Program-made: the position numbers and the translations under genes | From: Trissonchulus latispiculum | Taxonomy: Eukaryota > Nematoda > Enoplea > Enoplida > Ironidae | Direction: 5' to 3' | Assembly: GCA_030248195.1 (NCBI GenBank) | Contig: JASAND010028879.1 | Location: forward strand, 1-64,000 | DNA: 64,000 bases | The notes under the pieces: generated by a model | What the model was told of the DNA's origin: nothing | Seen by the model: the letters and a program-made list of their open reading frames with translations, nothing else | The model's database searches: none | Shown: positions 19,416-51,541 of the stretch, in pieces | Layout of the letters: the number at the start of each line of letters is the position of its first letter | How positions within the stretch are numbered: the first letter of the stretch is position 1

Positions 19416-19458
19416 AAAGTTGAGTTAAAATTTCACGAAATTTTAAATCATTGCCGGG

Positions 19459-22734: not shown

Positions 22735-23092
22735 GGAATTTCAACTCTTTTGACAATTTGATGAAGGAATAGCAACTTGCCTGAGACTCTACGTAATACA
22801 ATAACTGAGGATTTTATGTTTGAGCAGTATGTAAAACAATCTTCTGCAATTTATTGTCAAGAGTTAGCAATTTAATATGCTATTAATAATGTTTACGATG
22901 GAGCTGGATCTTCATATGCTACGGCTTTGGCCTTGATTACTTCCTTTTTCTAAAATAAACAATACAAAATCGACACAACATTAGATACCAAAATGCAGAT
23001 CTAACCAAGAACTAACTCAACTAACTCAATTATTACACCTTACTCTAGTCTTTGGTTAAACCAAAGTCAACCATAACTCCCAGAAGTCATGT

Positions 23093-23117: not shown

Positions 23118-24421
23118 TTACCCGATGAATTGAAGTTGTCCGGAAGACCCGAAACCGGAGGAACTGCCGAAACTCCCGCCGAATCCGAGTTTATTCAGCA
23201 GATCACTGTTTCCGCTGACGCTGATTTGAGTACTAGTTCCGCCTCCCTAAAATTAATTAAATTAAAATTAAAAAATTAAAATTAATTAAATAATGCACCC
23301 AGATCTTGATTAATAATCTTCTTCCAATCAGAATAAGAAAGGCGTTGCATAAAGCGCACTGTCAAAACAGTTACAGAATTTTCTAAAAATAAGAGCAATT
23401 GTAGTCAAGTTTTCGATTTCGACTTCTAAAAATACTAACAAATACTAACCATATTAATGACACTAATTAATTAATAGTGCATACAAGATTGCCAAATCCG
23501 CCAAAACCGCCGAAACCTCCCAGACTTCCGAGACCACCCAGGGAGCTAGTCGTTGAAGTTACGACAACCGTCTTGCCGCTCAAGTAGGCCAAAATGTTCT
23601 GCTTAATTTGCATATCTACGTTGTTGAAGACGGTGAAATCGAAACTGCCCGGCTGATGGTAGTCAACGTTGGCCAGAAGAGTCTTCAGTTTGGAGATGAC
23701 ACTAAATGGAAGGCTGGCCTGGAGCAAAATAAAATTAGAATTAATTAATTAGTTAATTAATTATTAATTCATAAATTAATAAATTAATAAAGTTTATTCA
23801 GACCTTTAACTTTGGCGAATTAATCTCAACAAACAAATTCGAAAAATTTCTGTAATCTGCTTAGTCAATGTTTTCATGAACTGAACCTAAAAAAGACAGA
23901 TAAATATAACGTACAAAGTTTTAAAATTTAAAGTTAATTGAAACCTGAATTTTTCCATCAGCAACCAATTTCAGCATTAGCAAAACCGTTTTCTTCGCTG
24001 ACACATCGGCGGTGTTGAAAACTTTGAAGTCGAAATCTCCCACATTCACTTGAGTTCCGGGGAAGAATGATGCCAATTGAGCCTTCAGTTGATTCTGAAA
24101 CATGATAAAGCAGGAAATGTCACAAATGTTTGACCAAATAGACCCAAAGGTGACAAGATTCCTTGGTAGTCCTTTTCTCATTGCCAATCTTTTAACGAAA
24201 TTCAGACAATTTGAACAGACTGCAAATTTCTGCGAAAAACACGAAATCCGTACCAAATCCGGAGTCGACTGAACGGGACGACGAGAAATGACGGAAATGA
24301 GAACTTGAACGGAATTGTCGTCGAGTTGTTTGAGAACGTTGAAATCGAACTGATCCGGTTGACTCGGATTGGCTGAAGCCAGAAGGACCTTCAGTTGGGA
24401 TACCAGATTGCTTGGAAGACC
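23118..24421 (-). repeat. Giant gene: final half-hexad and Gly-rich tail (exons 50-53)
   Basis: Exons: 50 A 24254-24421; 51 F 23945-24094; 52 E' 23485-23718; 53 23118-23246. Exon 52 starts as an E module (SFDFTVFNNVDMQIKQNIL) and then runs into GGLGSLGGFGGFGGFGNL. Exon 53 continues in the same frame and style, ending with GFGGSFGSSSGFGSSGQL and a TAA stop; its phase-0 acceptor follows AATTTTAG. If the exon 52 donor (GTATGC) is not used, translation ends six codons later at 23467 with VCTIN, giving a shorter tail with one extra cysteine. Low-complexity Gly/Phe/Ser tails occur in silks and other self-assembling extracellular proteins; this role is inferred. Confidence 0.85.
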
Positions 24422-27400
24422 CTAAACACCAAAAAATTTGCAAAAACTGGCAATTACTTACTTATCGTAACTGCATAGTTCCCCCCTCAATTTGAAAGTG
24501 TCGTTACAACCACACGGTCATCTGTCCCAGTACATCCAAAATTTACTACGTATCTGTTTATGTGGTATGATCAAAAGACAGTCCATCATTTCTACCTTAC
24601 AAAAGCCTGCCAAATTCTTATGATCACAACCCAGTGATCTGGCAAGACTAATTGCTCTATTGACTATTGACTAATTCAAAACAATCAGTTAATGATATTG
24701 TAAGGGAAGCAGGCATAGGTAAGATAAGCCTGTAACATGAGTTCAGCTGATGGCCCAGTGGTGTAGTTGGTTCGCATGTCTGCTCCGGAGTCAGAAGGGT
24801 TCGAAACCCGGCTGGACCAATTCTTTACTTTAGAGTTTGCAATTACGGACATGTTAAGTCTATCCTACTTGGACAGATCCCGAAGTGAACATCTGCAGCA
24901 GCTGAATGAGCGCTTTCTTTGTCTGCGGGTCCGCCTTGTTGAAGGAGTTGAAGTCGAAATCGAAAGTGATCACCGGCCCGGAGCCCGGGAACAACTTCGA
25001 GACAGTCGAAAACAGGGTCGTCTGAAATTGATGAAAAGAACTGAAAATAAATTAGAAAAAGTTGAAAACTGGAATTTTGAAAAAAGTTTGCACCTGGCGG
25101 GTCTCTAATCGACAGACTCTAACACGCAGTCGCTCTGTCAACTGTGTTACTGGAGCTTAACTGTACAGAGCTACGTAAATCAGAATTTTAAGTTTTTGGT
25201 ATAGGTTTCTGGTACTTCGACCTGGTTAGGGTCTTGTTACCAAGTTTCAATTTTTTTGGTGAGCAATGTCGTAAATGACTTATCTTACACCGTAAAACAT
25301 TCTCAAAATTGGGCTTGTATCCGCTCTACAGACCTATTTTTGTGACAGTTCAAAAATCAATTTGTAATCACTACGAGACGAAGCGATTAAAGTCAATAAT
25401 GCAATAAATATCAAAACAAATAATTTGTGCTCTGAATGCAGTACATATTTTAAATTAACTTTAAAGTAATTTTAAATTATTCTTACAATATCCGGCACAG
25501 GTTCTGATGGTGCGCTTCCGGTGAGCAAAAGAATCAAATATCTTTTCGTTTCTGGATCGAGATTAGTCAAAAGACTGAAGTCTGGATTGGGCTGAGAGTT
25601 AATCTGTTGCAAGATAATCTTAATCTTGCTCAAACTGGCCGGTGGAATTCCCTGAAATAATAAGATGAAGTTTTAACAGCTGTCATGACACAGAAAACAA
25701 TTAAGCAATAATTTCTGAAAACACAACCACACTCTTTTAGGTGTTTTTGTAGTTACAAGTTTATACATGTTGGGAAACAAATTAGGGTTCTCGATAGGAA
25801 AACCTGGTTTTTAACAACCAAAATCAGAAACCAAAAACCGACTGCTTTCTCAATCGATGAGTGCAGTTTTTATAAATCAGTTAATCTTATTAATTTAAAC
25901 CATCTCGACTCCGCACCTGTGTGGTATCAACTTTAGTCAATAGGTAGTTCAGGATGGTTTTTTTGGTAGTGACATCCAAATTGGTCAAAACATTCAGTGA
26001 TGTGACTCCAGACGGAAAGAGGGTTGTAACAATCCGGTTAACATCATCCTAAAAAGAAACAATCATAAGCATAAGAATAATTAAATGGCAAGATTAAATT
26101 AGAAAATCTAGTATCCTTTAAATTGTGCCTAACGCTGAATTACAGTGAAGTGCATCACATATGGCAACTGCATGCATCAACTTTCTTTGTAAAATTCAAC
26201 ATCATAATAAATGGTATGCACTAACTGAAACTAAAAAATAGTAAAATGACCAAAAATAAAATATTTTTAAAATTAACATCTTTAGATTGTCCCCCGTACC
26301 GTGTCGGGTTTACTGGGTCCAATGACTTGTGTCACAGTTTTTCCGCTCAAGAAAGCCAGAAGTAACTTTTTGGAGTCGATGTCCAAAGTGTTTAGGACGG
26401 CGAAATCGATGTTGGGACCGTCGGGTCGGTGTGTGTCCACATTTGTGAGAATCTGGTGCAACTTGGCCTGCAGAGTGTTTGTGACCGTGATGCCCTGAAA
26501 TATGCAAATTAGGTAAAAAAACAGGCCTGCTAGGTAAAGTAGGGCCTGAATTTGTCAGTTCATAGTTGCTACATTTGCACTCTTTCCAAAACTGTAGCAA
26601 AATTAGACCTATAAAAATTTGTCTTTTTCCCAACAAAGCATGGTGTCAGGTGCAAGTGCAAGTTAGTTCAAAACAGCAATCAGACAGCAATATACCAACA
26701 ATCCATCTCATCAAACTGCGGCTAAAAAGATTCATTCTCCAAGTGTGCACATGGCATGCTAGCGTACAAGCACAAGCACAAGCACAAGCACAAGCACTAA
26801 GGAGCTGCAGTATAGAAAAGGTCACAAGGAGAGCGGTTGTCACACACCGAGTGTTGAATCTCGATTTTTGTACCTGAAGTTTTCCACTGTCGAGAATTCG
26901 CAGCAGAGTAACCACTCCCTTTTTCGTGGGAACGTCGGCGTTGTTGAGAACGCTGAAGTCGAAGTTGTTCACGTTCACCTGGGTTCCCGGAAATAGGTGG
27001 GCAACAACTTGTCTGACTTGATCCTAGAAAAATCAGAGAACTAGTAGTGCAAGTGGCATAGTGAATAAATTACTGACCTTACAGGGAATCGACCCGAAAA
27101 CCCAAGTTCTGTAATCTCCTCGAGGGTTATTTACTGCGAAAATTTCTTGAAATATTAAGTTGGAAGTCCGAGAAGCTTGTCGGCTTAAAATTGACTTTTA
27201 GAAAGCAATGGTGAAGACTGAAAACTGAATTCAAAAATCCTTAGTTCCGTACCACATTCGGAAGTGACTGGACAGATCGACCTGAAATCAGCGAAATCAG
27301 GATCTGTTTCGAATCATCCGGCAATTGGTTGAGAACCTTGAAATCCACAGTTGTTGGGGAATCCAAATTCACTGGAGCCAAAATCGTTTTCAGTTGAGTC

Positions 27401-30400
27401 AGAACGTTGCTTGGAATTCCCTGAAAAAGCAAGTGGTAATGAATTTGGAAAATTGCACACAGCGAGGAATTGCGCCAAGTCAATTACGTTTGATTATTTA
27501 ATTATTAATTTACTTAATTATAAACTTAATTATTTTTAACAGAAGCATTCATTACCTGAACATTTCCAGTGGTAAACAATTTGAGCAATTGAGCCAGAGC
27601 GCTTTTGGTAGGTTGATCTTGTCGGTTGAAAATATCGAAATCAAAATCGAAAGTCACGATTGGACCAGAGCCAGGGAACACTCTGGAAATAATCGTAATC
27701 AGTGTGCCCTAAAAAATTAAATATACACATCAACACAAATTAAATAACACAATAAGAACAAAAATTTGCAATAATCGTCAACATCAACACTAAATAGTTA
27801 TCGAAAAACCAGAAAATCATGAGATCTGGAATTAAAAACGAGAGTACGAAAGAGATGAAGAGGTGTCAATGGAGCACCTTTTTTGACTCCAAGCATTCGG
27901 CCCTGAGGTGGGGATCGAACCCACAACATTTGGCTATCTAGGCCAACGCTCAACCGATTCAGCCAACCAGTCACAATCGAACCAAGCTTAAGTTTGAATC
28001 CGTTCCCAGACTGCAGTGACATTTTAGAGGACGCTTTCACGCCTGCCGCATATAGATTAAAACTAATACCTTATTATCATATATACGTACTGGGTCAGTG
28101 GGTGTGTTGGGAGTGGTTCCGACGTCGCCTCCGGTTGGATTCTGACCGGTCAGGATTTTGATGAGGTACTGTCGGGTCGTGGGGTCCAGATTGTTCAGAA
28201 TCGTGAAATCGATCGACGGCTGCGACTTCAACTGGACAAGAATCGGCTGCAGTTGATCGATCACATTCTGTGGTAGACCCTAAAATATTTTCCATTTTTA
28301 ATTTTAAGGTAATCTCAACATATAATTTTAAGTCAATTGCAATATTTAATTTTTGGTTCAAAATTGCGAATTCTAGCAATCGTGAAACACAAACAATTGG
28401 GTAATGGCGGAATTGAAATTTCATTGAAACCTTACCTATCGATTTGGCTTTACCTCTGGATTAGTTTGAGTTAGGGTGATCAAATAGTTTACGATGGTTT
28501 GTTTGGTGGGCTGATCGAGATTCGACAAAACGGTCAGCGAAGTTCCTGGCTGGATCAGTCCTTTCAGTCGGTTGAGCAGTTCAACTGTGATCTAAATTAA
28601 AACACATTTTATCTTTTTATCGTTTTATTGTATTATATGATAACAGATGATAACAAGGTTCGGGAATATTTTCTAAGAAGAAGAGCATTTTTCTCTGTCA
28701 GAAAAAGCAAATTGAAACCGAAATAAATAGAATGTTTATTTACATGCATTCCTAAAAAATTAATATTTTAAGAAGTGATAAAGAAATGTTTCATGATTTC
28801 TCCGAATTGACAATTACAACTCTGCGCATTTTTTGTCCTTTTCAACAACTAGGAATTGCAACGCAACCGTTGTGGGTCCTGTAGGGCCGATGTGTTGAAC
28901 GACGGTTTTTCCACTGAGGTAGGCCAGAAGGGTCTTCTTCGTTTCGATGTCCAGCGTGTTGAAGACCGTGAAATCGATATCGGGTCCCTCCGGTCGATGG
29001 TTGTCCACATTTATCAATATCTGATTCAGCTTATCAATGGCACCACTGGGCAGAGGTATTCCCTAAGGAACAATAAAAACAAACTGATTATGTTTTCGCA
29101 AACGGTTTGCATCATACATGAAGTGTATATTGGTGTAATAATTGGCAATATCATAACCGTAGATTTGTTTGTAAGAACATCGTAACGACTCTAAACTTCG
29201 AACTATTGCTACTGCTCGTGCTGTATCATTATACCAAGAGTACATAATGATAAGAGTGTGACAACAGGCAGGCTCTCTGTTATCAGAGCAAAAACTATGC
29301 TATGCGCACCATCGGCTTACCTCCCTCCCCCACAAACTAGCCCCCTCTCACACCGCCCCTATATGGGTACATAGTTTCAAACGGGGGGGGGGGGTGCTCA
29401 CTCGCATTATTTCGAAAGCAGATGTTGTGTTTGGCGAAGCGGGAACCAGCGTACCACAAAATTATACATTAATTGTAAGTAAGTAAGTAAGTTCATTCGC
29501 ACAACACAGTTACACACGTACAAGACTAGTGAGAAAAAAATAAGTTATTGGTTATTATAAGTCTGTCGGAGCAGTAGAATTTAGGGTTTCGCTTCCAAGC
29601 GTATCAACATTCCTATCGGCTTTTGTGAGAATTTAAGGGGGGGGGGGCTACTAAAATCGACTTGCCCCGACTTTGTCCGATTGGCCTAATTTTTGGCGAA
29701 GATATAGAGCATGGGTGTGGTCAAAAAATATCGGGTACTGAGATCTTAGTTGCCTTCCAGCCATGTGCAGCCGTCGCGTTTATGTGCCCGACCCCCCATT
29801 TTTCGCAACTACCAACATAATTAATTAAAAATTTCTACTGACTGCTAGGCCCAAGCTTCAAAGCTGTCATTCGCCAATATGATTTGGCACATATGCCCCT
29901 ACCTGTAGAAAAATACTAGATGTCTGTATCTTATCTGCATCTAAGGGAATTACTCTTGAAAGTTGAAGTTTCGGCAAAAATTTAAAAAATTTTGGCTAAC
30001 GAAAGGAAAATTTTATTACTGGTGCGAGCTACAAGGCTGTAATTTGACATAGAAGGAGGCCCTATAGGAGTACTCATTTGTGCCAAATGGCAAGAAATTC
30101 TGCCCAGTGAAAAAAATTTTATGTCAACTTTAATCTTCAAAAATTGCCGAAACCGCCATTTTCAGTCTGTCGGATCTTGTGTAGAGGCTTTCTGCAGCCA
30201 AAGAAGTCGCAAACCTTCACTAATCGAGCTGAAATCTTTTGTGGGGGTGTTTTCGACCTCGCTGAGTTCAAATATCTCAAATAATTTTAATTTGAAAAAA
30301 TTTGATTTTTTCGATTTCTGGGCTACCATTCCCCAAAAAAGGCGTTTTAGGAAATTTTTGAAGATTAAAGTTGACATAAAAAATTTTTCACGCGGCAGAA

Positions 30401-33400
30401 TTTCTTGCCATTTGGCACAAATGAGTACTCCTATAGGGCCTCCTTTCATGCCAAATTACAGCCTTGTAGCTCGCACCAGTAATAAAATTTTCCTTTCGTT
30501 AGCCGAAATTTTTTAAATTTTTGCCGAAACTTCAACTTTGAAGAGTAATTCCCTTAGATGCAGATAAGATACAGACATCTAGTATTCTTCTGCAGGTAGG
30601 GACATATGTGCCAAATCATATTGGCGAATGACAGCTTTGAAGCTTGGGCCTAGCAGTCAGTAGAAATTTTTAATTAATTACGTTGGTAGTTGCGAAAAAT
30701 GGGGGTCGGCCACATAAACGCGACGGCTGCACATGGCTGGAAGGCAACTAAGATCAACTATATCCTCGCCAAAAAGGAGGCCAATATGGCAAAGTCGGGG
30801 CAAACCTTTAGTAGCCCTCCCCCCTTAAAGAAAGGGAAGTAAGATGCATCATAAAGCGCAGAACTGCAGTTTATATACCTGAAGTTTTCCACTGGTGAGC
30901 ACTCTGAGTAGGGTGACGACGGATTTCTTGACCGGAACCGGAGATTGATTGATGACCGAGAAATCGAATTCGTTCAGATTCACTTGTGCACCCGGAAACA
31001 GACTCGTTAGCGTTTGACGGATCTCCGTCTGAAAAAGACATTACATTAATAGCCAGTTGAGGACCGAAATATTTTGAAACCGTTATGTTTTTCAAAATAG
31101 GTTATGGAAACTAAATTTCTTTCTCACTGATTCTCTAGTGGCTGGCTCCTGGAGGCGTGACAGATCCAACTTGGGGCCTTTTCAAGAATGCCTGGTTTAT
31201 ACTATCAAACTTTCTTCTGATTTTGTCAGATGGAACAAAATGTCAGAGCAAACATTTTGTATCCAACTTTTAGTTTACATTGTTCATCAAACAAGTAAGG
31301 AGTTTGCTACTGACAATGCCAGTGTCCAATCAAATTCAGCTTCTGTTGCTTCACACCAGCCATTTTCAAAATCAAGCAATACGACTGGTCAGTTTCGTCT
31401 GATATCAGACGGAATTTCCATTTTCGTCCAACAAAAATTTCATTTGTCAGAGCTGAGTCAGTTAGTCGTTTACACGCGAGAATTTCGACTGACTTTTGTT
31501 TGAAGAAAATTTTCATCTGACAAAGTCAGAAGAAAGTTTGATAGTGTAAACCCCCCTTTAGAGTAGAGTTAAAATTAACTCGATCCTGTTCATGAAGGAG
31601 TTAAAGGTAGGAAACTCAAGCTTGAGTGGGGTTAAAATCGGTTAAAACACTTAATTTTAAGTCTACTCTACTCTACTCTACCCTTTCTTGAAATTGCCAT
31701 TGGTTTGCGTCAGATCGACTTTCGTTGAGTAAATAATTTAGGAACGGTAAAGACCAAGATTTAGTTTTAATATTAACAAAAGAATGGGTAGTTCACAAGC
31801 AGGAAATTGTAAAATTAAACTTATGAGCACAGATTTGGAAAGTACCACTTGTCTTATAGGATTTTTGATCCCAATTGTTGCATTTTAAGAATTTTTTAAA
31901 ATCACTACATGAAACTGGCTTATCAATTTCGATTTTCATGTGAACGTGTTCGTTCATACAAATTTCAACTGCATTTGCATTTGCCACTTACAACATCTGG
32001 CACGGCTTGAACTGGTCGGCCCGAAATCAGCGAAATCAGGATCTGTTTCGCGTCGTCGGGCAATTTATTCAGAACCGTGAAATCCACAGTGGCCGGGGAA
32101 TCCAAATTCACTGGTGACAAAATTGATTTCAGCTGAGTCAAAACGTTGCTTGGAATTCCCTAAAACAGGTAGCAAGGAACTAAATTGCATATTGAAGTAT
32201 TCGACCAGAAGGCGCTGTGTGTTACCTTGTGGAAGAAGTGACCTGCTAAAAAATTGTCAAGTCAGCGCACCTTCAATACAACGTTAGTAAAAATCACGCA
32301 ATCCTGTAGTCTAGAGTTCTAACCTGAACATTCCCGGTTGTGAACAATTTCAACAGTTGGACGAGAGCGCTTTTGGTTGGTTGATCTTGCTTGTTGAAAA
32401 TGTCGAAATCGAAATCGAAGGTCACAACTGGACCGGAACCAGGGAACACCTTTGAAACAATGGTGATCAATGTACCCTGGAAAATATAAGATTACAGTCA
32501 TGCAGTCGGTATTGCTAATAAAATAAAATAAAATCGTTAAGAACGGATTTCGCTTACACGCCTTGAAATCGCATATTTTTCACGAACTAGATACGATATC
32601 AGAGTTCGAAATTTAGCTGTGTTAGAGTTATTCAGTTTGAAAGTCAGTTTGACAGCCAAATTTGTAAGTTGCAATCATGATATGAGTCCTTCATGGTCTA
32701 AGAACAATAGTTGCTTGGGCAATTAAAGTATTAAAGTCTTTACGAGGGCAATATTTCAGTGATTACACATCTGGGTCAATCGCGGCCAATGGGGAAATCC
32801 GTAAACCGAATGAGACTTGAGGAAATTAGAAAAGATCAATTTTAAAACAGATGCATACCAGATCAGTGGGAGTGTTGGGAGTGGTTCCGACGTCGCCTCC
32901 GGTTGGATTCTGTCCGGTCAGGATTTTGATGAGGTACTGTCGGGTCGTGGGGTCCAGATTGTTCAGAATCGTGAAATCGATCGACGGCTGCGACTTCAGC
33001 TGGACAAGAATCGGCTGCAGTTGATCGATCACGTTCTGTGGTAGACCCTAAAATGGGAAGCTTGAATTTATGACAAACACTAAATAGGTTCCATAAGGTA
33101 TTAGTTGCAGATTGCAGAATAATTACTGAAAACAAAGCGTGAGGTTAGACTAAGGCTTCTCATTATGACTGCAAATGTGTTCTTCTAACGTGTGTTCTTC
33201 AAATGTCTTCTAACGTTTGATAAATAATTATTTTTATCGAATGTTTTATCAAATGTCTAAGAAAATAAAAAAATTGCCACGTTGAAGACTAAGAAATCTG
33301 CATGGAAAGAAAAATCATGTTAGCTATCTAACCTGTGAATTAGTTTGAGTTAAGGTGATCAAATAGTTTACGATGTTTTGTTTGGTAGGCTGATCGAGAT

Positions 33401-39400: not shown

Positions 39401-42400
39401 CCTGGATTGATCCTATTACAATTGGATATCAACGGGAAACCGTGCATTCCACCGAATTTCGAATTGCAACTGTGCGCAATTTTTTGTCCTTCTCAACAAC
39501 TAGGAATTGCAAAGGAGCTGTACCCACCGTTGTGGGCCCTGTGGGCCCGATGTGTTGAACGACGGTCTTTCCACTGAGGTAGGCCAGAAGGGTCTTCTTC
39601 GTTTCGATGTCCAGCGTGTTGAAGACCGTGAAATCGATATCGGGTCCCTCCGGTCGATGGTTGTCCACATTTATCAATATCTGATTCAGCTTATCAATGG
39701 CACCACTGGGCAGGGTTATTCCCTAGAGAAATAAACAAGTGGAAGGTACAAACGACATTTTTGAATATTTTAATTATGAAAATTGAAATTGTAAATAAAT
39801 AAGAAAATGTTTGATTCCTGTTTTAGAAAATTAAGAATACGTATTCAATCATTTCGACTTGAATCACCAGGCGTAGAAAATTCGAAGCACAACTCGACTG
39901 CAACTGAATTTATTGATTTATTGATACCTGAAGTTTTCCACTAGTCAGAACTCTAAGTAGGGTGACGACGGATTTCTTGACCGGGACCGGAGATTGATTG
40001 ATGACCGAGAAATCGAATTCGTTCAGATTCACCTGGGCGCCCGGAAACAGACTTGTGATCGTTTGACGGATCTCCGTCTGAAAAATGGGAAAATATTTAT
40101 GCCAGAGCTGCTGGCGATTATTAAACTAGTTATAAAACAATTATTAAATGTCAATGCTCAACAAATTAGACAAAGGAAAAATTAAGTTTAAATAAAGCTT
40201 AGTAAAACTAGGATAAGTTTTGGATAACATTTGTTGATTCCACTTTACACCAGTTCTCTGCAAGACTGCATTCGCCACTTACAACATCTGGCACGGCTTG
40301 AACTGGTCGACCCGAAATCAGCGAAATCAGGATCTGTTTCGCGTCGTCGGGCAATTTGTTGAGAACCTTGAAATCCACAGTCGTCAGAGAATCCAAATTT
40401 ACTGGAGACAAGATCGTTTTCAGCTGAGTCAAAACGTTGCTTGGAATTCCCTAAAACAGCAAGAAATAAACTAATTTGCATATTGGTATTGAATATTAAA
40501 TGCTTCGATGTAGTTCAGTCAAATCAAACTTTCATCGAGCTTTCCAACAACTGCCTCCTTTTCAGGGAAGCTGGAAAAGTAATGGCAAACCGAACTGTTA
40601 CGGACAGGCACAAACAAACGTTTAAAAACAATTAATAGAATCTTTTAACCTGAACATTTCCAGTGGTGAACAATTTGAGCAGTTGAACCAGAGCGTCTTT
40701 GGTCGGCTGATCTTGTCGGTTGAAAATACCGAAATCAAAATCGAAAGTTACCACCGGACCGGTTCCTGGGAACACTTTGGAGACAATGGTTATCAGGGTT
40801 GGCTGAAAAACCCAAAAATGACAGTTAAGATTTATCAAATTGGCAATTTATTTCAGAATATTAACATTAAGATTAAGAGGAAACGTGACATCAGAAATAA
40901 TGGAATATAGAAATATTCTATCAAAATTATGTAAGTTTCGACGTAACAATGTTGTAGAAGAAGAAATGGATGGGTAAGAAATCCTTTTTACAACCACGTC
41001 AACCCAGTCGGTACTCCGGTTAGGGGTAGTGCCTGCTTAGAACGTGAGAAATGCATTTTGAGGGAAGGGGGGATGCTGACACTGAATAATTGCCATAGCA
41101 ATTGCCCGAGATGTTCTACAAGGCTATCAGAACGCCTATTACGTCCACCACAAGAGGTGCTATATCTGACGGGCGGCCACCCCTTGACAAGCTGTGTAAA
41201 GTGCCAGGGTGGATGTGAAATCGGGTGCTCGAGCTTATTTTTTGCAAGCTCTAGACTTGACATGATCCTCAACCTCCACTTATAGTGCAGTAAGAAACCA
41301 CTACGCTATCAGAGTCTCGAAGAAATGCTTAATGACAACTTTGGAAAGATCTCCACATTTTTACATACATACCAGATCAGTGGGAGTGTTGGGAGTGGTT
41401 CCGACGTCGCCTCCGGTTGGATTCTGTCCGGTCAGGATTTTGATGAGGTACTGTCGGGTCGTGGGGTCCAGATTGTTCAGAATCGTGAAATCGATCGACG
41501 GCTGCGACTTCAGCTGGACAAGAATCGGCTGCAGTTGATCGATCACGTTCTGTGGTAGACCCTAAAATGGGAAGCTTGAATTTATGACAAACACTAAATA
41601 GGTTCCATAAGGTATTAGTTGCAGATTGCAGAATAATTACTGAAAACAAAGCGTGAGGTTAGACTAAGGCTTCTCATTATGACTGCAAATGTGTTCTTCT
41701 AACGTGTGTTCTTCAAATGTCTTCTAACGTTTGATAAATAATTATTTTTATCGAATGTTTTATCAAATGTCTAAGAAAATAAAAAAATTGCCACGTTGAA
41801 GACTAAGAAATCTGCATGGAAAGAAAAATCATGTTAGCTATCTAACCTGTGAATTAGTTTGAGTTAAGGTGATCAAATAGTTTACGATGTTTTGTTTGGT
41901 AGGCTGATCGAGATTCGACAAAACGGTCAGCGAAGTTCCTGGCTGGACTACTCCTTTTAGTTTTTCAAATAAAAGGTTGACATCGACCTAAAACAGAAAA
42001 AAAGAATTATAGATACGTCTATAACCTAAACACAAAAGCAGCCAAGCGTGCTCGAAGATTTTCTGGCAGGTTAGCGGACAAACCAGATTCTTACTGAAGT
42101 CTGAAAAAATTTATTTCATCTATCAAAACAGTATATATAGGGAGGTCAGTATGAAAGCTAAAGTTGTAAAAAAGATTAAAAAAGAAAATTTGTTTTCTTA
42201 TTATTACTCGAAAAGCTACTCTGAACTCTGACTTTTAGCTTGGGGCCTTGGTACAGGATTTAGCGCCATATCGAAAGAGCCAAAATCGGTACATTTTGAA
42301 TTGGCCCAGACATACAAGCGCATTGTCGCAAATTACAATCGAAATAAAAGTGTATAGTTACAGTTGTGGGTCCTGTAGGGCCGATGTGTTGAACGACGGT

Positions 42401-45400
42401 TTTTCCACTGAGGTAGGCCAGAAGGGTCTTCTTCGTTTCGATGTCCAGCGTGTTGAAGACCGTGAAATCGATATCGGGTCCCTCCGGTCGATGGTTGTCC
42501 ACATTTATCAATATCTGATTCAGCTTATCAATGGCACCGGCGGGCAGAGTAATGCCCTGAAGAACAAAGGAAGGAATTTATTTTGCACAAGGGTTTAGCC
42601 TTAGCACTGAAACTTAACATGCAATATTACCAGGTATGGTTTGCCATTACCTACTTTAAATTCTAATATTTTCATAACAGAAAACTGTGCGCAACAAAAT
42701 CAACAAATCGTAATTTTCTCAAATCAAGCTTACAATCAGATATATAAGTGTTTATGGGACTAGCTTGCACGTGCTATAGACACACTAGAAACGACAAATC
42801 AATGATGCCATATCAATATTACATATTACCGATCAAATCGATACCTGAAGTTTTCCACTGGTGAGCACTCTGAGTAGGGTGACGACGGATTTCTTGACCG
42901 GAACCGGAGATTGATTGATGACCGAGAAATCGAATTCGTTCAGATTCACTTGTGCACCCGGAAACAGACTCGTTAGCGTTTGACGGATCTCCGTCTAGAA
43001 ATTTAAATTAACAATTTCAAAAAATCGGAAAAACTATTGCAAATTGGAAAACTATTACAAACAAAGTTAGACGTAACTAAAATGATTGCTTACAAATTTC
43101 TGAATTTTGCAAATTCAGAAAGTTCAAGCATTTGTGGTTACTTACAACATCCGGCACGGCTTGAACTGGTCGGCCCGAAATCAACGAAATCAGGATCTGT
43201 TTCGCGTCGTCGGGCAATTTGTTGAGAATCTTGAAATCCACAGTAGCCGGGGAATCCAAATTTACTGGAGACAAGATCGTTTTCAACTGAGTCAAAACGT
43301 TGCTTGGAATTCCCTAAAACAAGAAAAAACTGACTAATTTGCATATATACTAGCTAACTACTAGAAATTTAACTAATTTGAGTGAAGGAATCAACTGCTA
43401 CAACTCGATGCAAAAACGGTCTTTAGAAGCCCGACGTGTCAATATCATAGAGGCTGTTTACTCTTTATGAATGGTGGGACAAAATTCAAATTCGTTATCG
43501 CTTCTGAAAACTAATTTTATGTCGATTAATTTGTTAGTTAACTTTTGCTAACCTGAACTATTAATTTGTTAGTTAACTTTTGCTAACCTGAACATTTCCA
43601 GTAGTGAACAATTTTAGGAGTTGAACCAGACCTTCTTTGGTCGGCTGATCTTGTCGGTTGAAAATATCGAAATCGAAATCGAAAGTCACCACCGGACCGG
43701 TTCCTGGGAACACTTTTGATACAATGGTGATCAGGGTTGGCTGAAACAATAAAAATATAACAATAAAGTTAGAATAAGTATAGAAATAAATTATAAATTA
43801 TTAATTAAGATGCAAACAGATTTACACGCAACAAATTGTTCTCGTTTGAGCCAAAGCGTCAAATCTTACACTGCAACAGAAATACCCAATAACTTTTCAC
43901 CAATTATATTCAGACTTTAATTTTATTATTATTATGAATCAGCTCAGGTTTCTGATTATAATTTAATATAATTAATTTTCATTTAATCTAACCAGATCTT
44001 GCTGAGTAGCAGTTGTCGGTGTAACAACCGTCGGTTGAGTTTGACCGGTCAAAATTCTGATCAGATACTGTTTCGTCGGTTCATCCAAATTGTTCAAAAT
44101 ACTCAGATTTACTGTCGGCTGCGACTTGATCTGTTGTAGGATCACGTTAATCTTATCAATGACCGTCTGAGGAACGTCCTAAAAATTTAAATTAAAAAAT
44201 TACAAATTACAAAATTATGTAACCTAGCCTTATGGCTAAGTTATGTAAGCTAAGTACATAGAATTAATCATGCTCAAAATTAGTCTAACCTAAAACTGTA
44301 TGAATGTTTGAAATCAACTTAGAATTTAAATTTAAAATTTCAGTAGTTGCAAGAATTCAAGTTTGAATTTTTATTCTGCTAAGCTAAGTGTACGGTACGG
44401 GTAGGTTGAATTAACAATTCTCACAAATGGTTTAGACTTTAAAACTGAATGAAAAATTGAAAATTTATAATTCACATTAAAAACTTTAGAAACTGTAAAA
44501 ATTAAAATTAAAATTTTTATTATGCTAAGCTGTACTGTACGGAAAGGTTGCATTAACCTAATTGCGCTCATGATTGGTTTAAATCTGATTTTGTACGAAG
44601 GCGATTGATATGTCTCTTGTCACGTGTTACCTGTGGTTTATTCTGGACAATGTTGATTAGATAGTTGAAAACTTTCTGCTGAGTTGGAGCGTCCAAAGTT
44701 GACAAAACTTCCAGGGATACTCCGGGTCGAATTAGATTCTTCAAATTCTGAATCAGTATCGTAACATCCACCTAAAATCACTGACTCTACTTTAGTTTCA
44801 ACATTCTCGGCTTTTAATTGTTTTTAACTTAATTTATTAACCTCAATTCAAATTATGGCAATATTAATATTAATATTAATTAATTGATTGATTAATTAAT
44901 TGATGGCTAGTACTATCATTCATGGCAGATAATGACACAGATTATGTAAGCAATAAATGATAATTTCAGTAATGATGGATAAAACGTTAACATTCAGTTC
45001 AGTATGCCTGGTTTAATGTTGCGAGAGGTTCAATTATGTGGTTTAAGCTACATTGGTGAAATTTACAAAAATCCTACCGGCGCCGGAGTTGTACCCCCAG
45101 TAGGTCCGATGACTTCCAAAACCGGTTTGCCACTCAAGTAGGCTAGGAGTATCTTTTTCGTTGGCAGATCGAAGTTGTTCAGAACACTGAAATCGATGGT
45201 TGGATTTTTGGGATCCACATTTGACAGGATTTGCTTCAGCTGAACGACGGACGGTTCTGGCAGAGTGATTCCCTGAAAAAGCAAAAAGATACCACTGATT
45301 ATTGCAGTAGCGAAGACAATAAAAACATAAAATAACAACTTTGTTAGGAACTTGTATTGAACATTCCTTTAAGCTCTAACTGGTTTACTACACATTTAAT

Positions 45401-48400
45401 TTTCAATACTTATCACAGACTTATTATTTAGCTGAAGCAAAGCTACATGAAAATTGACGTTAGTGGTAAAATATATTTGCAATTTTTAATAATTTTTTTG
45501 TCAGGGCTCTTAAAAAATTTACATCACATTTATCAATTTTCAAGAAAAATTAAAATTTTGATCGATTTGTTAGAAAAGTTTAAAAAGTTTGGCAAAACCT
45601 TTGAGTCGAGCCGGAAGTTTTTAAAGATTTCGGTGCGGAAACTCCTGTTTCGTTGTGTTTCGGCTATTTCTGCTTACTCTTGACCCAGTTTTCTTACTCC
45701 TTGCCTCTGCTGGCAAGTCAGGGCAGTCAGGGCTTGCACGGGGTGTAGAGGCTTCGGCCCCGTACCCCCTCCCCCTTGTTAACCTACTGTTAACAATTTG
45801 TATATACGAATGTCGGAAAAAATTACAAGTTATAAAAGAATATTACTAGCTATAAAATGCTAATTAGTTATCACTAATTTTACTAATCCTTTCATTAATT
45901 ATTACTGCAAAACATGACTGCAGTAATAATTAACCTGAAGTTGGCCAGTCGTTAGCACTCTCAACAGGGTAACTACGGTCTTCTTAACGTTTGGTTCAGC
46001 ATTGTTGAAAACGGTGAAATCGAATCCATTGACTTCAACCTGCGGTTTTGGGAAGAGGGAGACGATGATTTTTCTCAGATCATCCTAAAAATCAATCAAA
46101 ACAACAAATCAGTTATATATATACGTAATCAAATTTCCTAAAACGTCGGCAAACAAATTAAATCTAGAATTAGTTTTAAAATAAATTAATTTGTTTGATT
46201 AATTAGTTTCTTTAATTAATTAGTTAGTTAGTTTAATTAGTTTTAGATTAAATTCAATTTCTTACAACGTTGGGCAGGGGTTGAACAGGTCGACCGGAAA
46301 TAATCGAAATCAGGATTTCCTTCGATTGGTCATCCAACGGATTTAGGATCTTGAAATCGATCTTATCGGGTGACTTCAGATCAACATTGCTCAGGATTGG
46401 ACGAAGCTGGTTCAATACAGAATCAGGCACTCCCTAAAAGTTAAAAATTCCTTAAACAAATTAACAAGGCATTTAACCAAAACCAATTATAATATCCTCA
46501 GATCTATATAACATTTCACAACAATGATTCTAGTCTAAACAAAGAAAAAATGAATAAAAGAAAGGTCAAAAAATATAAACGAATGGTGAAGTACTAAATT
46601 TAAACTACAAATGGAAGAGACGTTGTAGTGATTTCATTTTTACTTCACAATGAAAGAAACGTTCTAGTGATTTCGTTTTTACTTCACATATTAGGTATCT
46701 GCGGTAGGGTTATTCAAAGCAAAATTAAGGGGGTCCATTGTGAAAAATTTTGACCACGGATTTCGCTCATTTTCACACATAATCTAGCCACATATGTCGT
46801 ACATTTCGAGCTTAAATTTTGAGTTGTTTAGTTCAGTTCTCCTTAAGTTTCGAGCTATTCAATGAGTATAATTTGAATATAATCGAAAATGAGGACGCTG
46901 CAGACAACTGAAGCAAGTTTTCGCAAACCAACTTCAGATTTTTGGCTTATTTTGCTATATACTTTTTATAAACAATAATGGAAACATCTTCGTACAGTTT
47001 CAAGTCAGATGAGCATGATCAGTAGCTTCTTTAAAGGGTTTTTCAAAGGAACAAGGTCCCTGGTCCCCCGAATGTAATGAAATATTTAGCAGAGCTTAAC
47101 TTGAAAGAGAAGCATTTCCGAGCCATAGTTCCATGAGAAAAATTCATCCAATGCAAAAAAGGGAATTTTACAATATAGCTTGGACGTAAATTGCCTATCT
47201 TTCTAAAAACAGCAATTTTCGCAATTTTTTCAGAAAAAAACCGAATTGCTGCGCCAGAAACATCTCAACACTGGCAAAAGATTCCAAGTAACATTGGCTA
47301 TCACTATTAGCTATGCATCTACTGTGTCACTGTGGAGTTGGAATTTTTAGTTAGGATCTCTGTTTTTATATGCAGTCAAACTTAACGACCCCCATTTTTG
47401 GTCACCAAAAACGTCAGAATTTTGCGATTTTCGGCAGTTCGCTAAATTCAAAAATTCATTAAAATGTTTTGAAGCCCTAATTCAAAATTCCAATTCCACA
47501 GTGACACAGTATCTGTTTAGAGGTTTAAAACGACACCAAAAGTTACCCGGTATCTCACACCAGTTTCGAGATTTCTTTGGCGCAGAATTACACACACTCC
47601 ACTCTACTCTACTCTACACTTTTTCGATTTCCTATGTTAACACATGCATACCTCTACTTTGAGATAAATTTTCTCAAGTACCGTAAGTGATCCGACTTAA
47701 ATTTTATAAACTCGTTAAAATATCCCATTGGACAATAAAATATGTAAATATAAATAAATATAAAATGAGAAAATCCGAGATAGTCGAAGAATGACCCCAA
47801 AGTGGACTCCCCCCCCCCTTAACAAGATAAGAAATGAAAACCAAAACTCCTGTTTACTTGAACATTTCCTGTAATCAGCAGCTGCAGTAGCTGAGTGAAC
47901 GCAGTTCGACTTGGAATATCCGCCTTATTGATGACATCGAAATGGAAATCGAAGGTTACAATCGGACCGTCACCCGGAAACAAGCGAGATACCACACTGA
48001 TTAGCGACTGCTAAAATACACAGGAAATTATATTTATGATTTTTGAATGCAAATTTTAAATTTATTAACATTAAAAGAGCTACTTTTAGTCGATTTTAAA
48101 CCATCCTTTTGTAATGTTTAAAGAAATTGGACGAAGCTTAAACTCCAAAGGTTATTTGTTCTCAACTTTCCGACACCTAGAAGAGTGGTAGGTTTTTTAT
48201 GGTTGGAACCATTCAGCTTCCGGTTTGGTTCAAATCCCACAAATTTAAAATCCTTCAACTTTTTATTAAATATTGCTCCGACAATTACATATCTCAGTTA
48301 AAATCAGTTGATACTTTCACCGATCTGCTTAACATCAAACTTCGACGTGTGAGCAGAATATTATGGTAAATTCCTAAATTTTGAAACAATATTCCTAAAT

Positions 48401-51400
48401 TCCGAAACAAAATTCCTAAATTCTGAAATCTTACAATATCCGGAAGGTCAGAAACGGGTTTCTGTGACAACAGTGACAGCAAAGTGGTTTTCAGTTTATC
48501 CGGCAGGTTGTTGAAGACCTTGAAATCGAATTGGTCTGGGGTGTCCGGATTTGCAGATTCAACCAATGGGCGCAAAGCAGTCGTCAAATCGGTTGGAATT
48601 CCCTGAAAAAGCATTCAGTTTAATGATAACATTAATGAAAATTATGAAATTAACGTTCACAAGCTTAGGTCATGGACTGAAAAATTTTCAACATTTGCTT
48701 TAGCCATAAGTTCAGCAATTATTTGTACATAGATCCATAAATCAATAGAAGCTACACCTAATGCATATTAAATCAATATTAAATCAATAAATAAAGCAGT
48801 ATTACTTATCAATCAATCAATTACATCTGACCTGTGAAAAACTTTTATATGTACAACCTACCTCTATGTATCATTTGGCTTTTATATTCACCATAATTTG
48901 TGAAAATATTTACTTGAATAGTGTCTCCAGTGAACAACTTGAGTAGATGCAAAAGGGCAGTTCTGGTCGGCACGTCGGCCCGACTGAAAACGTCAAAATC
49001 GAATCCAAACGTGACTATCGGCTTCCCTTCAGGGAACAGAGTTTTCACTATTTCGCGAAGTTGATTCTAAAAACAACCATAAAATTAAATAGTGCCCGAG
49101 TAGGTTTCGTGATCTAAATACAATCACCAAATTTTATATCATACGTACTTTGCCGCTTTACCACGCTTTAAAATAGAGTAGATAGAAAAGGAATGAATTT
49201 AGTAAAATTATTAAAGAAAAAGTTGATCAATGGTTTAATCTGTCCAAAAACTCTTTTTCAAGCATACACTTTTAAAGCAGTGTAACTGTTTTTCGTACGA
49301 AACCGCTAGTCATGTACGCAAATTTCACATATTCGCTAAACTAAACTAATCACGATGCCTTTTCCTTTCCTTTGCATTTTCTTTTTCCGTGTTTTCTTTT
49401 TTATTAGAATTTATTTCATAACAATCTTATGGTAAAGTAGCACTTAAGTATACCACGTCAGGTGTTGTGGGTGTTCCGAAGTTCAGCAGAAACTGTAGCA
49501 CCGTCTGTCTTGTTGGGAGATCCAAATTGTTGAGAAGTTGGAAGTTGAACTGAGTTCCGGGCTTGTACTGGGACAGGATTGCAATCAGCTGGTTTTTGAC
49601 ATTCTCAGGAACTGGCTGAAATATGCAAATTAGTTTTCTTCAGTTACTTCGCTGTTAAATTTTGCATAAGAATTAAATAAAATTTAAATTCCGTATCAAA
49701 TTTCAAACACCAACTAGTAACAGTAAATTTCACTAAAAGGAAAGTCAATTGTTGAGTAATAATTAGGTTAATTATAAATTATTAATTAATTACAGTATCA
49801 GTCTTTCCATTGGCCAACTGAATCAACAGCTGAATAATGGCATTCTGAGTTGGCTGGTCTTGGTTGTTGAAAATGTCGAATTTGAAATTCGGAATATCCG
49901 GACTACCGATCTGCTTGATCACTTTGATCACCACTGGCTTCAGAGCGTCCTAAAATACAATTCAGATCTAATTAAACTTTTAATTTTTTAAATTTAAATT
50001 AAAATTAAATTTAATTAAATTTAAAAGTTTAATTTTTTAACTAAAACTAAACTGAACACTAAACTACAAAATGACTAAACACTTGAAGCCTAAAACAATC
50101 GCCAGATAAATATACTAAATCTACATTATGCCATGTTGTTACTTTGAATTTGAACGTAGGACTACATGAATCAATCGCACTTGGATTGCAATCAATCAAC
50201 AGCAATCCTCTTTTTATGCTGAGAACAGTCAAAATGGTATTGGTAATTCCTGCGTAGCAATGTTGATAGAGACTATACGTACTCACTCAGACCAATCTTG
50301 CTATATATCTCTTGTTGAAAGCTTGCTATATATCTCTCTTGTTTCGGAGTCATTTGTTCACTATACGTCATGCACTTCATGCACTGGTAGCATACACATT
50401 TCGAGTCGGGATTTTCCCACAATGAGGCAGAAAACCGTTAAGACTATGTTAAAGTTAAGTAATACCAAGAGTACATAATGATAAGAGTATGACACTAAGC
50501 ATGACACTAGTCTCTGGTATCAGAGCAATCATGCGCTGGTAACAGACACATCCACAATGAGGCCAGACTATGTTAAAGCTTTGTAAGTTATACTTACAAC
50601 CGGATCGGGATTGGGAAAGGTGATCTGAAAAGGTTGATCACCAGAGAGGCTTCGAAGGAATCTCAGCAATTCCTCTTTCGTGGGCACGTCGAGATCATTT
50701 AGTCGAGTGAAATCGAAGAGGGGCGCAGTTCCGGGTCCGTAGGGTCCAAACAGCACCTGAAGTTTCGGTTGAACCGTCGCCTGGATGTTCTGAAACGATA
50801 GAATTGTTACGGATTACAAGAAGCCAAATTTAAGTCAAAGTATCAAACATCACAACATTACGAGCTGGGGGACTTCTGGGGCATTCTTTCTTTCTTTCTT
50901 TCTTTCTTTGACTTTTCTTTCATTCTTGAAAATTTCTTTTTCTTTGCACTCGACTAAGACAGTGGCTGTAGCAAGCGCGCAAGCAAGCTGTAAACAGTGA
51001 CCAGTTCCAACTTATAACTAATGCTAAATTAAAACTATTATACCTAACTAATAAAAAAGTGGTAACCCATATATACAAAATTAATATAGTCGTATATTCG
51101 ATGACTAGCGTAGTGCAGTGGTCAGCGCCCCCATAGCAAATCAGGAAGCTGGAGTGCAATTGCTGGTCTGAATATCTTCAGTTTTCACTGGTTTCACAAA
51201 ACTTTACATCTTTCAATGACTTTGTTCCAAACCCCAGGTTAAACTGCATACATGTCAGAATTTGCCAGTTGAAACTGCATTTTTGGCACAGTAATACGCA
51301 ACCCGTAAATTTGGTGCAACTACATCGCTAAAGACAAAGGCTGCATAGCACTATTAATGATGCTCACTCATCTTCTGAAGTGCACAACTGAAAGCCTAAT

Positions 51401-51541
51401 TTATTTAAAGTAAATTAAACTGCAATTAATTACTTGCAAAATTAATTGCGATTAAAGAGCAACCGCAACACTTACCGGACAAACGCAGGTATCAGCCAAG
51501 GCCGACCCAGGAAGTGCAATTAGCAGCAATAACAATATCAT
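23118..51541 (-). CDS. Giant secreted modular repeat protein, 53 exons (novel family)
   Basis: Family not recognised. Exon 1 (51476-51541) encodes a signal peptide. Exons 2-52 each hold one complete module of 44-65 residues: an amphipathic stretch like L-x-x-L-K-x-I-L, then a core F-D-F-x-V-F-N-x-L-D-x-x-T-K, then L-L-x-x-L-x-x-G. Exons 52-53 add a Gly/Phe/Ser-rich tail. All exon lengths are multiples of three and all introns fall between codons (phase 0), with GT-AG ends, usually GTAAG/GTTAG donors and TTTTAG or CAG acceptors. Six module types recur as A-F-E-D-C-B in transcription order, seven full times (exons 8-49), then A-F-E'. Length is about 2,886 residues if one 1-bp frameshift in exon 32 is set aside. 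The only cysteines are two just after the signal peptide (CVC). Inference: an extracellular structural, adhesive or elastomeric protein. Exons are given in the block entries. Confidence 0.9.
24752..24819 (+). mobile_element. tRNA-like element (tRNA-Arg-like pseudogene or SINE head), intronic
   Basis: 68 nt beginning GGCCCAGTGGTGTAGTTGG and ending GGTTCGAAACCCGGCTGGACC-A. The acceptor halves (GGCCCAG and CTGGACC) pair except at one position, and A- and B-box sequences are intact. The anticodon region (TCTGCTCCGGAGTCAGA) resembles tRNA-Arg(CCG) but the variable loop is missing and position 33 is uncertain. It lies antisense in the exon 49-50 intron. Confidence 0.5.
24869..27420 (-). repeat. Giant gene: hexad 7 (exons 44-49)
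   Basis: Exons: 44 A 27253-27420; 45 F 26874-27023; 46 E 26300-26494; 47 D 25917-26048; 48 C 25487-25651; 49 B 24869-25021 (56, 50, 65, 44, 55, 51 codons). The modules keep type identity but are clearly diverged from the central hexads; exon 48 lacks the long Gly/Thr/Pro tail of other C modules, and exon 47 is the shortest module. Confidence 0.88.
27901..27973 (-). mobile_element. tRNA-derived SINE head, intronic
   Basis: Reads TGGCTGAATCGGTTGAGCG (A-box), a perfect anticodon-type hairpin TTGGC-CTAGATA-GCCAA, and a perfect T-arm GTGGG-TTCGATC-CCCAC, but the 5' and 3' acceptor strands do not pair. Located in the exon 42-43 intron, same strand as the host gene. Confidence 0.55.
29637..30824. 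mobile_element. TTAA-flanked foldback element P1 (piggyBac-like MITE), 1.19 kb
   Basis: Flanked by TTAA at 29633-29636 and 30825-30828. The arms (about 29637-30141 and 30354-30824) are long inverted repeats starting G(n)CTACTAAA and sharing CTTGCCCCGACTTTG and GTGCGAGCTACAAGGCTGTA. TTAA target duplication is the signature of piggyBac-type elements. No transposase. The 131-aa and 95-aa ORFs inside it are artefacts of the palindrome. Inserted in the exon 39-40 intron. Confidence 0.75.
31194..31552. mobile_element. MITE with ~39-bp TIRs in exon 38-39 intron
   Basis: Left end GGTTTATACTATCAAACTTT continuing CTTCTGATTTTGTCAGATG; the right end (31513-31552) is its inverted copy with two or three differences. 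The 121-aa ORF inside has no domain. The same element sits at 34647-35005 in the duplicated intron. Confidence 0.75.
31559..31683. repeat. Small inverted repeat next to the MITE
   Basis: GAGTAGAGTTAAAATTAA at the left and the inverted TTAATTTTAAGTCTACTCTACTC at the right; possibly a second mini-element. Copied at about 35012-35136. Confidence 0.5.
32324..35611 (-). repeat. Giant gene: hexad 5 (exons 32-37), with a frameshifted first exon
   Basis: Exons: 32 A 35445-35611 (167 nt, 1 bp short); 33 F 34332-34481; 34 E 33849-34043; 35 D 33333-33473; 36 C 32859-33047; 37 B 32324-32476. Exon 32 lost one C in its third codon relative to its near-identical copy exon 38, and has other clustered differences within 30 bp; spliced at the normal acceptor it hits a stop (TGA) at codon 7. 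From about codon 4 onward the correct module frame is intact. The intron between exons 32 and 33 contains a MITE also present in the duplicate intron. Confidence 0.88.
34647..35005. mobile_element. Duplicate copy of the ~39-bp-TIR MITE in exon 32-33 intron
   Basis: Essentially identical to 31194-31552 at a fixed offset of 3453 bp and in the same intron context. It was therefore carried along by the segmental duplication rather than inserted twice. Confidence 0.75.
35776..38111 (-). repeat. Giant gene: hexad 4 (exons 26-31)
   Basis: Exons: 26 A 37944-38111; 27 F 37429-37578; 28 E 37056-37250; 29 D 36677-36817; 30 C 36311-36499; 31 B 35776-35928 (56, 50, 65, 47, 63, 51 codons). Exon 28 ends with a weak donor (ACG|GTGCTA). 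Exons 30 and 31 lie in a duplicated block shared with hexad 5 (offset 3452-3453 bp). Confidence 0.9.
38232..40450 (-). repeat. Giant gene: hexad 3 (exons 20-25)
   Basis: Exons: 20 A 40283-40450; 21 F 39928-40077; 22 E 39528-39722; 23 D 38973-39110; 24 C 38610-38798; 25 B 38232-38384 (56, 50, 65, 46, 63, 51 codons). Exon 23 has one codon fewer than most D exons. The stretch from exon 24 through 23 and its flanking introns is about 95% identical to exons 42-41 (offset 10,519 bp). Confidence 0.9.
40650..43313 (-). repeat. Giant gene: hexad 2 (exons 14-19)
   Basis: Exons: 14 A 43146-43313; 15 F 42845-42994; 16 E 42362-42556; 17 D 41847-41987; 18 C 41373-41561; 19 B 40650-40802 (56, 50, 65, 47, 63, 51 codons). 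The segment from exon 18 to exon 15, introns included, is near-identical to 32859-34481 in hexads 4-5 (offset 8513-8514 bp). The intron between exons 18 and 19 carries an inserted element at about 40920-41330. Confidence 0.9.
40920..41330 (-). mobile_element. Inserted element, possible SINE, in exon 18-19 intron
   Basis: G+C-richer than the surrounding intron. On the - strand it starts with a tRNA-like GATAGCGTAGTGGTTTCTTA (A-box type) near 41310 and runs to about 40985. The 94-aa ORF within has no domain. A similar GACTAGCGTAGTGCAGTGG start lies at about 51101. Ends not determined. Confidence 0.4.
43588..46433 (-). repeat. Giant gene: hexad 1 (exons 8-13)
   Basis: Exons, type and position: 8 A 46266-46433; 9 F 45935-46084; 10 E 45078-45272; 11 D 44631-44771; 12 C 43993-44178; 13 B 43588-43740. 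Lengths 56, 50, 65, 47, 62 and 51 codons. First complete A-F-E-D-C-B set; diverged from the central hexads except exon 13, which is close to the central B exons. A 35-bp tandem duplication spans the exon 13 donor, so a second donor-like CAG-GTTAGC lies 35 bp downstream; its use would shift the frame. Confidence 0.88.
46729..47818. mobile_element. TTAA-flanked foldback element P2, 1.09 kb
   Basis: TTAA at 46725-46728 and 47819-47822; termini GGGGGTCCATTG and, inverted, GGGGGGGGGGAGTCCACTTTG. Internal inverted segments match, e.g. CTGCGCCA...CATCTC near 47250 and its inverse near 47570, and GTGTCACTGTGGAGTTGGAA near 47326 versus its inverse near 47497. Non-coding; in the exon 7-8 intron. Shares sequence with element P3. 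Confidence 0.65.
50459..50530. repeat. Dispersed repeat ACCAAGAGTACATAATGATA
   Basis: The block ACCAAGAGTACATAATGATA then AGAGT and a GTATCAGAGCAA end is repeated at 29227-29290 (both in introns of the giant gene) with small changes between. Likely tails of one interspersed family. Confidence 0.5.
51101..51180 (+). mobile_element. tRNA-like SINE fragment in intron 1
   Basis: GACTAGCGTAGTGCAGTGG followed about 45 bp on by TGCTGGTCTGAATATC gives degenerate pol III A- and B-boxes. No tRNA fold. A (TTTC)n run lies nearby at 50887-50911. Confidence 0.35.

Follow-up and report, generated by a model that had tools for sequence, protein, structure and literature searches.

A candidate family of giant secreted proteins built from one-exon modules in the nematode Trissonchulus latispiculum

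Introduction

The question raised by this locus of the nematode Trissonchulus latispiculum is how a gene predicted to encode 51 related modules, one per exon, has come by its nested repeats, and what its product may be. The gene lies in contig JASAND010028879.1 of assembly GCA_030248195.1, whose positions 1 to 64,000 were analysed here (the window). A first-pass annotation of this DNA had read 53 exons on the - strand, encoding an undescribed protein of about 2,890 aa with a repeat of six modules (hexad), a signal peptide and a Gly/Phe/Ser tail. The reading that we favour, with confidence and doubt about evenly weighed and the doubt mostly on function, is that the gene belongs to a small family encoding giant secreted proteins, that its repeats undergo exchange largely limited to exons, and that the product would be an extracellular structural polymer.

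A chain of 51 modules on one strand

An iterated module profile, run against both translated strands of the window, matched 51 modules, all on the - strand and each with an independent E-value of 8.4e-11 or lower; only two other matches were obtained (E 0.27 and 1.5). Since the profile had been trained on these same modules, two controls were carried out. The module profile gave no match better than E 0.1 in the reversed window, and a profile made from the 21 outer modules recovered 30/30 central modules, the worst of them at E 1.2e-12. The assignment of one module to each of exons 2-52 in the first-pass annotation is borne out by these matches.

The modules, of 44-65 aa and one phase-0 exon each, were modelled as a chain of 53 exons on the - strand (51541-23118), with 52 introns of median length 285 nt and a product of 2,886 aa, 9 of them unknown (the first nine residues of exon 32, entered as X). 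The exon number, the coordinates of exons 1 and 53 and the size of the product agree with those of the first reading. The joining of the exons into one splice chain is a prediction from the DNA. Exon boundaries are phase-0 AG/GT sites placed by script, or by hand in exons 1, 27, 30, 40, 45, 52 and 53, and because the boundaries were chosen as phase-0 sites, the AG/GT dinucleotides and lengths in multiples of three are built into the model. A phase-0 AG/GT site pair exists for every module and an open phase-0 exon was modelled for 50 of the 51, exon 32 alone breaking the frame. Donor sites vary widely from the consensus.

Exon 1 (51476..51541, on the - strand like the rest of the gene) encodes a putative signal peptide, MILLLLLIALPGSALA, whose cleavage point was judged by eye, followed by DTCVCP, and has a GTAAGT donor in phase 0. 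Three head modules, h1, h2 and h3, recognised by profile matches and in the module tree, occupy exons 2-4 (49454..50789, -), and an additional B-A dyad, assigned by type profiles and the tree, precedes the hexads (exons 5-6, 48435..49066, -). Seven hexads of the order B-A-F-E-D-C come next: hexad 1, diverged from the central ones (exons 7-12, 43993..48010, -); hexad 2 (exons 13-18, 41373..43740, -); hexad 3 (exons 19-24, 38610..40802, -); hexad 4 (exons 25-30, 36311..38384, -); hexad 5, a chimera (exons 31-36, 32859..35928, -); hexad 6 (exons 37-42, 28091..32476, -); and hexad 7, also diverged (exons 43-48, 25487..27708, -). A last B-A-F-E' run (exons 49-52, 23485..25021, -) leads into the Gly/Phe/Ser tail, which begins in exon 52; exon 53 (23118..23246, -) carries Gly/Ser/Phe tail sequence ending in LQFIG and then TAA. 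An AATAAA at 22850..22855 (-), read directly from the sequence, is a possible polyadenylation signal.

Leu, Thr, Val, Pro and Ile predominate in the predicted protein, with 2.6% Ala and 6.1% Gly overall, and Gly-rich sequence is confined to the tail. There is no Trp and a single N-glycosylation motif. The signal peptide, the Cys-free repeats and the Gly/Phe/Ser tail noticed at first are all present in the model; absence of Cys holds for the repeats but not for the whole protein, which has exactly two Cys, both in the CVC after the signal peptide, in a CxCP motif found also in two paralogues.

Mean identity between modules was 0.73, 0.70 and 0.67 at offsets 6, 12 and 18, and 0.27-0.33 at offsets 1-5. 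Together with the module order (h1-h2-h3, B-A, seven times B-A-F-E-D-C, B-A-F-E', tail), the value at offset 6 upholds the seven A-F-E-D-C-B turns (exons 8-49) and final A-F-E' (exons 50-52) described earlier in a different phase. Even offsets other than multiples of six gave 0.32-0.33, slightly above the 0.27-0.30 of odd offsets, and the short types B, F and D alternate with the longer types A, E and C. On this sequence evidence the hexad B-A-F-E-D-C divides most naturally into the dyads BA, FE and DC.

Three further observations concern the introns. The one between exons 50 and 51 (24095-24253, -) is open and in frame with both neighbours, and its retention would therefore read through. A tRNA-like match (27908-27965, -; Rfam, 33.9 bits), on which ARAGORN makes no call, lies in the intron between exons 42 and 43. 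In the 1.8-kb intron 39, frames at 30043-30513 (+) and 30165-30455 (-) have a peptide stretch in common, which suggests an inverted repeat or a mobile element.

No significant relatives in the libraries searched

No Pfam family was matched at E<=1 by exons 1-11 or by hexad 2; exons 43-53 gave one chance-level match (ANAPC9, E 0.045, below the family cut-off), and the best E for the 39 of 51 modules searched singly was 0.07. NCBIfam gave weak matches in single hexads, taken as chance (best TIGR00269, E 0.0037). Nothing below E 0.25 was found in PDB, where a weak, non-significant likeness of the L-x-x-L-D-x-x-T-K stretch of the module to the helical repeats of FliG (3hjl) had E 0.25. Neither a query of 1,293 aa nor a profile of five hexads had a match at E<=1 in a set of 5.8 billion proteins, where the search scored only the ~8,000 candidates sharing most words. 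As control, a DEG/ENaC open reading frame (ORF) of the window was used, and it too had no match at E<=0.001; the set thus seems to be without this animal group, and the null result there is not used as evidence. Of 101 pattern matches in contigs of prokaryotes and 35 in those of viruses, none was confirmed, and no description of the module was found with a few search terms in the open-access papers searched. The earlier statement that no named family with this module is known stands after the Pfam, NCBIfam and PDB scans. To judge from these comparisons, the modules form a family without a match in the libraries searched, apparently present in several genes of one nematode genome.

Sister genes repeat other blocks

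The genome (734 Mb, 21,732 contigs) was searched with protein queries, from which contig counts are lower bounds; copies, haplotype-like ones included, were counted separately. Further modules were found on at least eight other contigs (C5061, C7926, C16732, C20786, C9406, C12794, C3553 and C12243), and two further protein queries of the genome added none to those of the first. The protein is undescribed in the sense that no library searched gave it a significant match, but it is not a singleton. The paralogue modules at E<1e-3 numbered 69 with a window-only profile, 84 with the outer-module profile and 87 with a profile retrained on the matches. Both phase-0 splice sites could be assigned in 83 of these 87, by a script that picked exons at times visibly too short, and none of the 83 contains Cys.

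Two genes are carried by C5061. Over their longest stretches, C7926 and C16732 are 96-99% identical to the first of them, and they are probably its haplotypes or recent copies; C3553 and C12794 are 91.8% identical over 3.6 kb. The repeated block of C5061 gene 1 and of C20786 is B-A-F-E. In C12794, h1-h2-h3 and a single B-A-F-E-D-C are followed by blocks of four modules. By the tree these blocks are F-E-D'-C; by the type profiles the assignment is less clear, with F or B and A or E as the candidates. Modules of C9406 are strongly diverged. Because paralogues repeat such other, four-module blocks, the six-module order is not obligatory: the repeating hexad that had been described is real in the window gene but is not the obligatory unit.

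The module tree was built without partial exons, contigs C7926 and C16732 and the near-copies in window exons 19-42, and 12 of the 51 window modules were left out of the module alignments (A2/A3). Head modules and types A, B, C, E and F largely cluster by type across genes; type D is a weak grouping, assigned in C12794 by position only. The h1 of the window gene groups with C12794 and C5061 gene 2, and its h3 adjoins a head module of C12794.

The two ends of the gene also recur. A signal peptide, CxCP and a GTAAGT donor were found in exon 1 of the paralogues at C12794:8245 and C5061:31477 (gene 2), and where the tail of the window gene closes with LQFIG, that of C5061 gene 1 has FQLLG and that of C20786 LQIVG. 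A pattern scan, in which some genes were incomplete, gave the CxCP start in three genes and a QLxG-like Gly-rich end in three, the window gene counted in both, plus two near-copies; it gave neither start nor tail in C9406 and C12243, both diverged or incomplete.

These genes add to what is known a protein module family and a giant-gene family without a name in the libraries and literature searched, and, as sister genes that expanded different blocks, they lend themselves to a comparison of the repeat hierarchy (module, dyad, hexad) in a natural setting.

Similar exons between mostly unrelated introns

The ratio dN/dS, calculated leaving exon 32 out, was 0.09-0.34 in the 18 hexad comparisons, of 21 made, that allowed an estimate, and the repeat array is under purifying selection. 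Among hexads 2-6 the mutual dS was 0.09-0.32; between these and hexads 1 and 7 it was above 1 or saturated. The central hexads have exons that are 81-100% identical. Comparison of hexads 2-6 within each exon type gives 60 pairs, and in 40 of these the similarity has ended by 20 nt outside both splice sites; the median identity of these 40 is 93%, with 11 at 95% or more, and some lose similarity inside the exon. Intron matches occur mainly in blocks (introns 15-17 with 33-35, 30-32 with 36-38, and 23 with 41); besides these, two short pieces are common to introns 22 and 40, and a single one to introns 2 and 39. The introns of hexad 5 show it to be a chimera: introns 30-32 match 36-38, on the side of hexad 6, and introns 33-35 match introns 15-17 of hexad 2, with the exchange point in or at the type-F exon 33.

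The simplest account of this pattern, as read from the DNA, would be recombination confined to exons after drift of the introns. The array may grow and shrink by the dyads BA, FE and DC through unequal exchange. Since most central repeats have lost the resemblance between their introns, pairing and exchange would by now be largely limited to exons, and such exchange would homogenise the exons while keeping the frame.

The contrast in identity between exons and introns might have arisen otherwise, through constraint on synonymous sites or conversion by spliced cDNA, instead of ordinary exchange between exons, and we give this a minor share of our belief. The type-C exons of hexads 2-6, 95.7-99.7% identical with most flanks unrelated, would suit it. 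Synonymous sites are not generally frozen, however, because dS is above 1 or saturated when the same types are compared in hexads 1 and 7, and nine of the ten type-B pairs of hexads 2-6 are only 81-97% identical. Conversion by cDNA is opposed by the introns, which were kept and not lost, and neither process is favoured by the chimeric hexad 5, whose exchange point falls at an exon. Mobile introner elements were also considered for the introns and found unsupported: one diverged intron was tested and is single-copy genome-wide, and matches between introns within the gene lie mainly in a small number of duplicated blocks.

Exon-limited exchange may be set beside the MaSp2 genes of Argiope spiders, in which repetitive introns are reported to be homogenised to 97.6% mean similarity (PMC9779670). 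Both encode, or would encode, a giant secreted repeat protein with intron-delimited hierarchical repeats homogenised within the gene, but the window gene shows the reverse arrangement, its exons being homogenised and most central introns unrelated. If exon-limited exchange is true, it would be a route of concerted evolution opposite to that of the intron-homogenised silk genes.

Nature of the product

A structural extracellular role is the likeliest one, as far as it can be deduced from the predicted protein. The product would be a polymer of a matrix, a coat or a gland secretion, in which many weakly binding modules might give bulk, the N-terminal Cys pair might cross-link chains and the Gly-rich end might serve in assembly. 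The fibre, glue or gel suggested in the first-pass annotation is likewise a conjecture from the sequence. Spidroins have conserved terminal domains and Ala/Gly-rich low-complexity repeats. No Pfam match to the spidroin terminal domains was found in exons 1-11 or exons 43-53, and the window protein, with 2.6% Ala and 6.1% Gly, is Gly-rich in its tail only. If the role in a matrix or secretion is true, nematodes would have in it a new protein akin to a biomaterial. We propose more tentatively, and with more doubt than belief, that it is a material of the nematode lineage of a kind not yet described, an extracellular polymer that assembles itself from six specialised types of module. Its gene would have turned the exons into the main places of recombination; coding units would be copied and made alike there, the introns being free to diverge.

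Several points weigh against a giant structural protein maintained by exchange between exons. Exon 32 is broken in the present assembly, and the paralogue on C16732 is partly broken. The CxCP start and the tail were each found in only two paralogues, and 20 of the 60 central same-type exon pairs have flanking intron sequence in common on one side or both. Periodicity of the hydrophobic moment at 100 degrees points to two amphipathic segments in each module, which might be helices, but simple residue propensities favour strand over helix across much of six sampled modules. The presumed material role, finally, has size, repetition, composition and the Cys pair as its whole basis.

A secreted polyprotein that carries lipids or other hydrophobic ligands, its modules paired into binding cavities, seems to us fairly unlikely. 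Nematode origin, a signal peptide, tandem repeats and possibly amphipathic segments would agree with it, and since short and long modules alternate, dyads of ~110 aa could form one unit. The nematode polyprotein allergens (NPA), such as ABA-1, consist of tandem lipid-binding units with regular proteinase cleavage sites between them and very small introns or none in the repeat region (PMC3079579). Binding of fatty acids or retinol is a further mark of the group. The window protein resembles them in nematode origin, secretion, large size and tandem units, but has no significant sequence match to them, with modules of 44-65 aa, and its gene has an intron at every module, of median length 285 nt, where NPA genes have tiny introns or none in the repeats. 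A test of cleavage sites, which covered RxxR and basic pairs, found one RxxR in the 2,886 aa and 20 basic pairs, none at a module joint and 18 at the TKK/VKK position of the core. The repeat of the insect allergen Bla g 1 is helical and in tandem, two consecutive repeats making one structural unit (PMC6893020); tandem amino acid repeats are common to it and the window protein. Six helices around a lipid cavity make up the Bla g 1 unit. Module lengths differ, however, and the Bla g 1 family is not among the Pfam matches of the scanned parts. Bla g 1 is not known to have an N-terminal CxCP or a Gly-rich tail. Exons 1-11, hexad 2, exons 43-53 and 39 of the 51 single modules lack a significant Pfam match.

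In the model every exon except 32 is frame-neutral (phase 0-0) and any subset of these exons would therefore keep the frame. With donors that deviate widely from the consensus, cassette skipping could yield proteins of many lengths and mixtures, possibly an antigenic or recognition repertoire. We hold this to be improbable: the homogenised central exons would yield little diversity, and duplication of one-exon modules would produce symmetric exons just as well.

The structural reading has also to be set against the state of the assembly. Exon 32 (35445..35611, -), of type A, has its acceptor AG and measures 167 nt, compared with 168 in its sister exons; near its 5' end the frame is broken by one base and mismatches are clustered, features that the near-identical sister exon 38 does not have. 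The break may be a consensus error or mark a pseudo-exon. Around exons 30-36 the blocks match others at 99-100%, and because they are near-exact copies, the number of hexad turns hangs on correct assembly there. That the whole locus is a set of misassembled repeats or a dead gene is very hard to believe: the broken exon 32, the 99-100% copies among the blocks of hexads 5 and 6 and the contigs 96-99% identical over long stretches, which suggest uncollapsed haplotypes or recent copies, would fit, but 50 of the 51 modules have an open phase-0 exon, dN/dS is low and paralogues have the same architecture.

Neighbouring genes and additional observations

Matches to PF00858 (amiloride-sensitive sodium channel) were found in the window in ORFs at 1102-2427 (+), 15910-17235 (-) and 4495-5211 (-). 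The first two are single uninterrupted frames over the whole profile, which is unusual among nematode channel genes. The sequence at 3401-4258 (-), with no Pfam match, resembles part of another channel copy. An open frame of 376 codons at 18297-19424 (-) looks by eye like a seven-helix receptor and has no Pfam match at E 0.01.

In the genome, at least 150 matches to Col_cuticle_N (nematode cuticle collagen) were obtained, 150 of 285 candidates having been scored, together with 44 to TTR-52; a search made without positive control gave no match to the RR cuticle protein. The collagen and TTR-52 families mark the animal as a nematode, and an arthropod origin, which had been considered, was set aside on their account. 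A frame-broken cox1-like copy in the 37-kb contig C17523 (~28493-29676) reads with the invertebrate mitochondrial code (TGA=W, AGA=S) and is likely a nuclear copy of mitochondrial DNA. The window also contains a satellite at 10235-12269, with 13.8 copies of a 148-bp unit, 92% matching.

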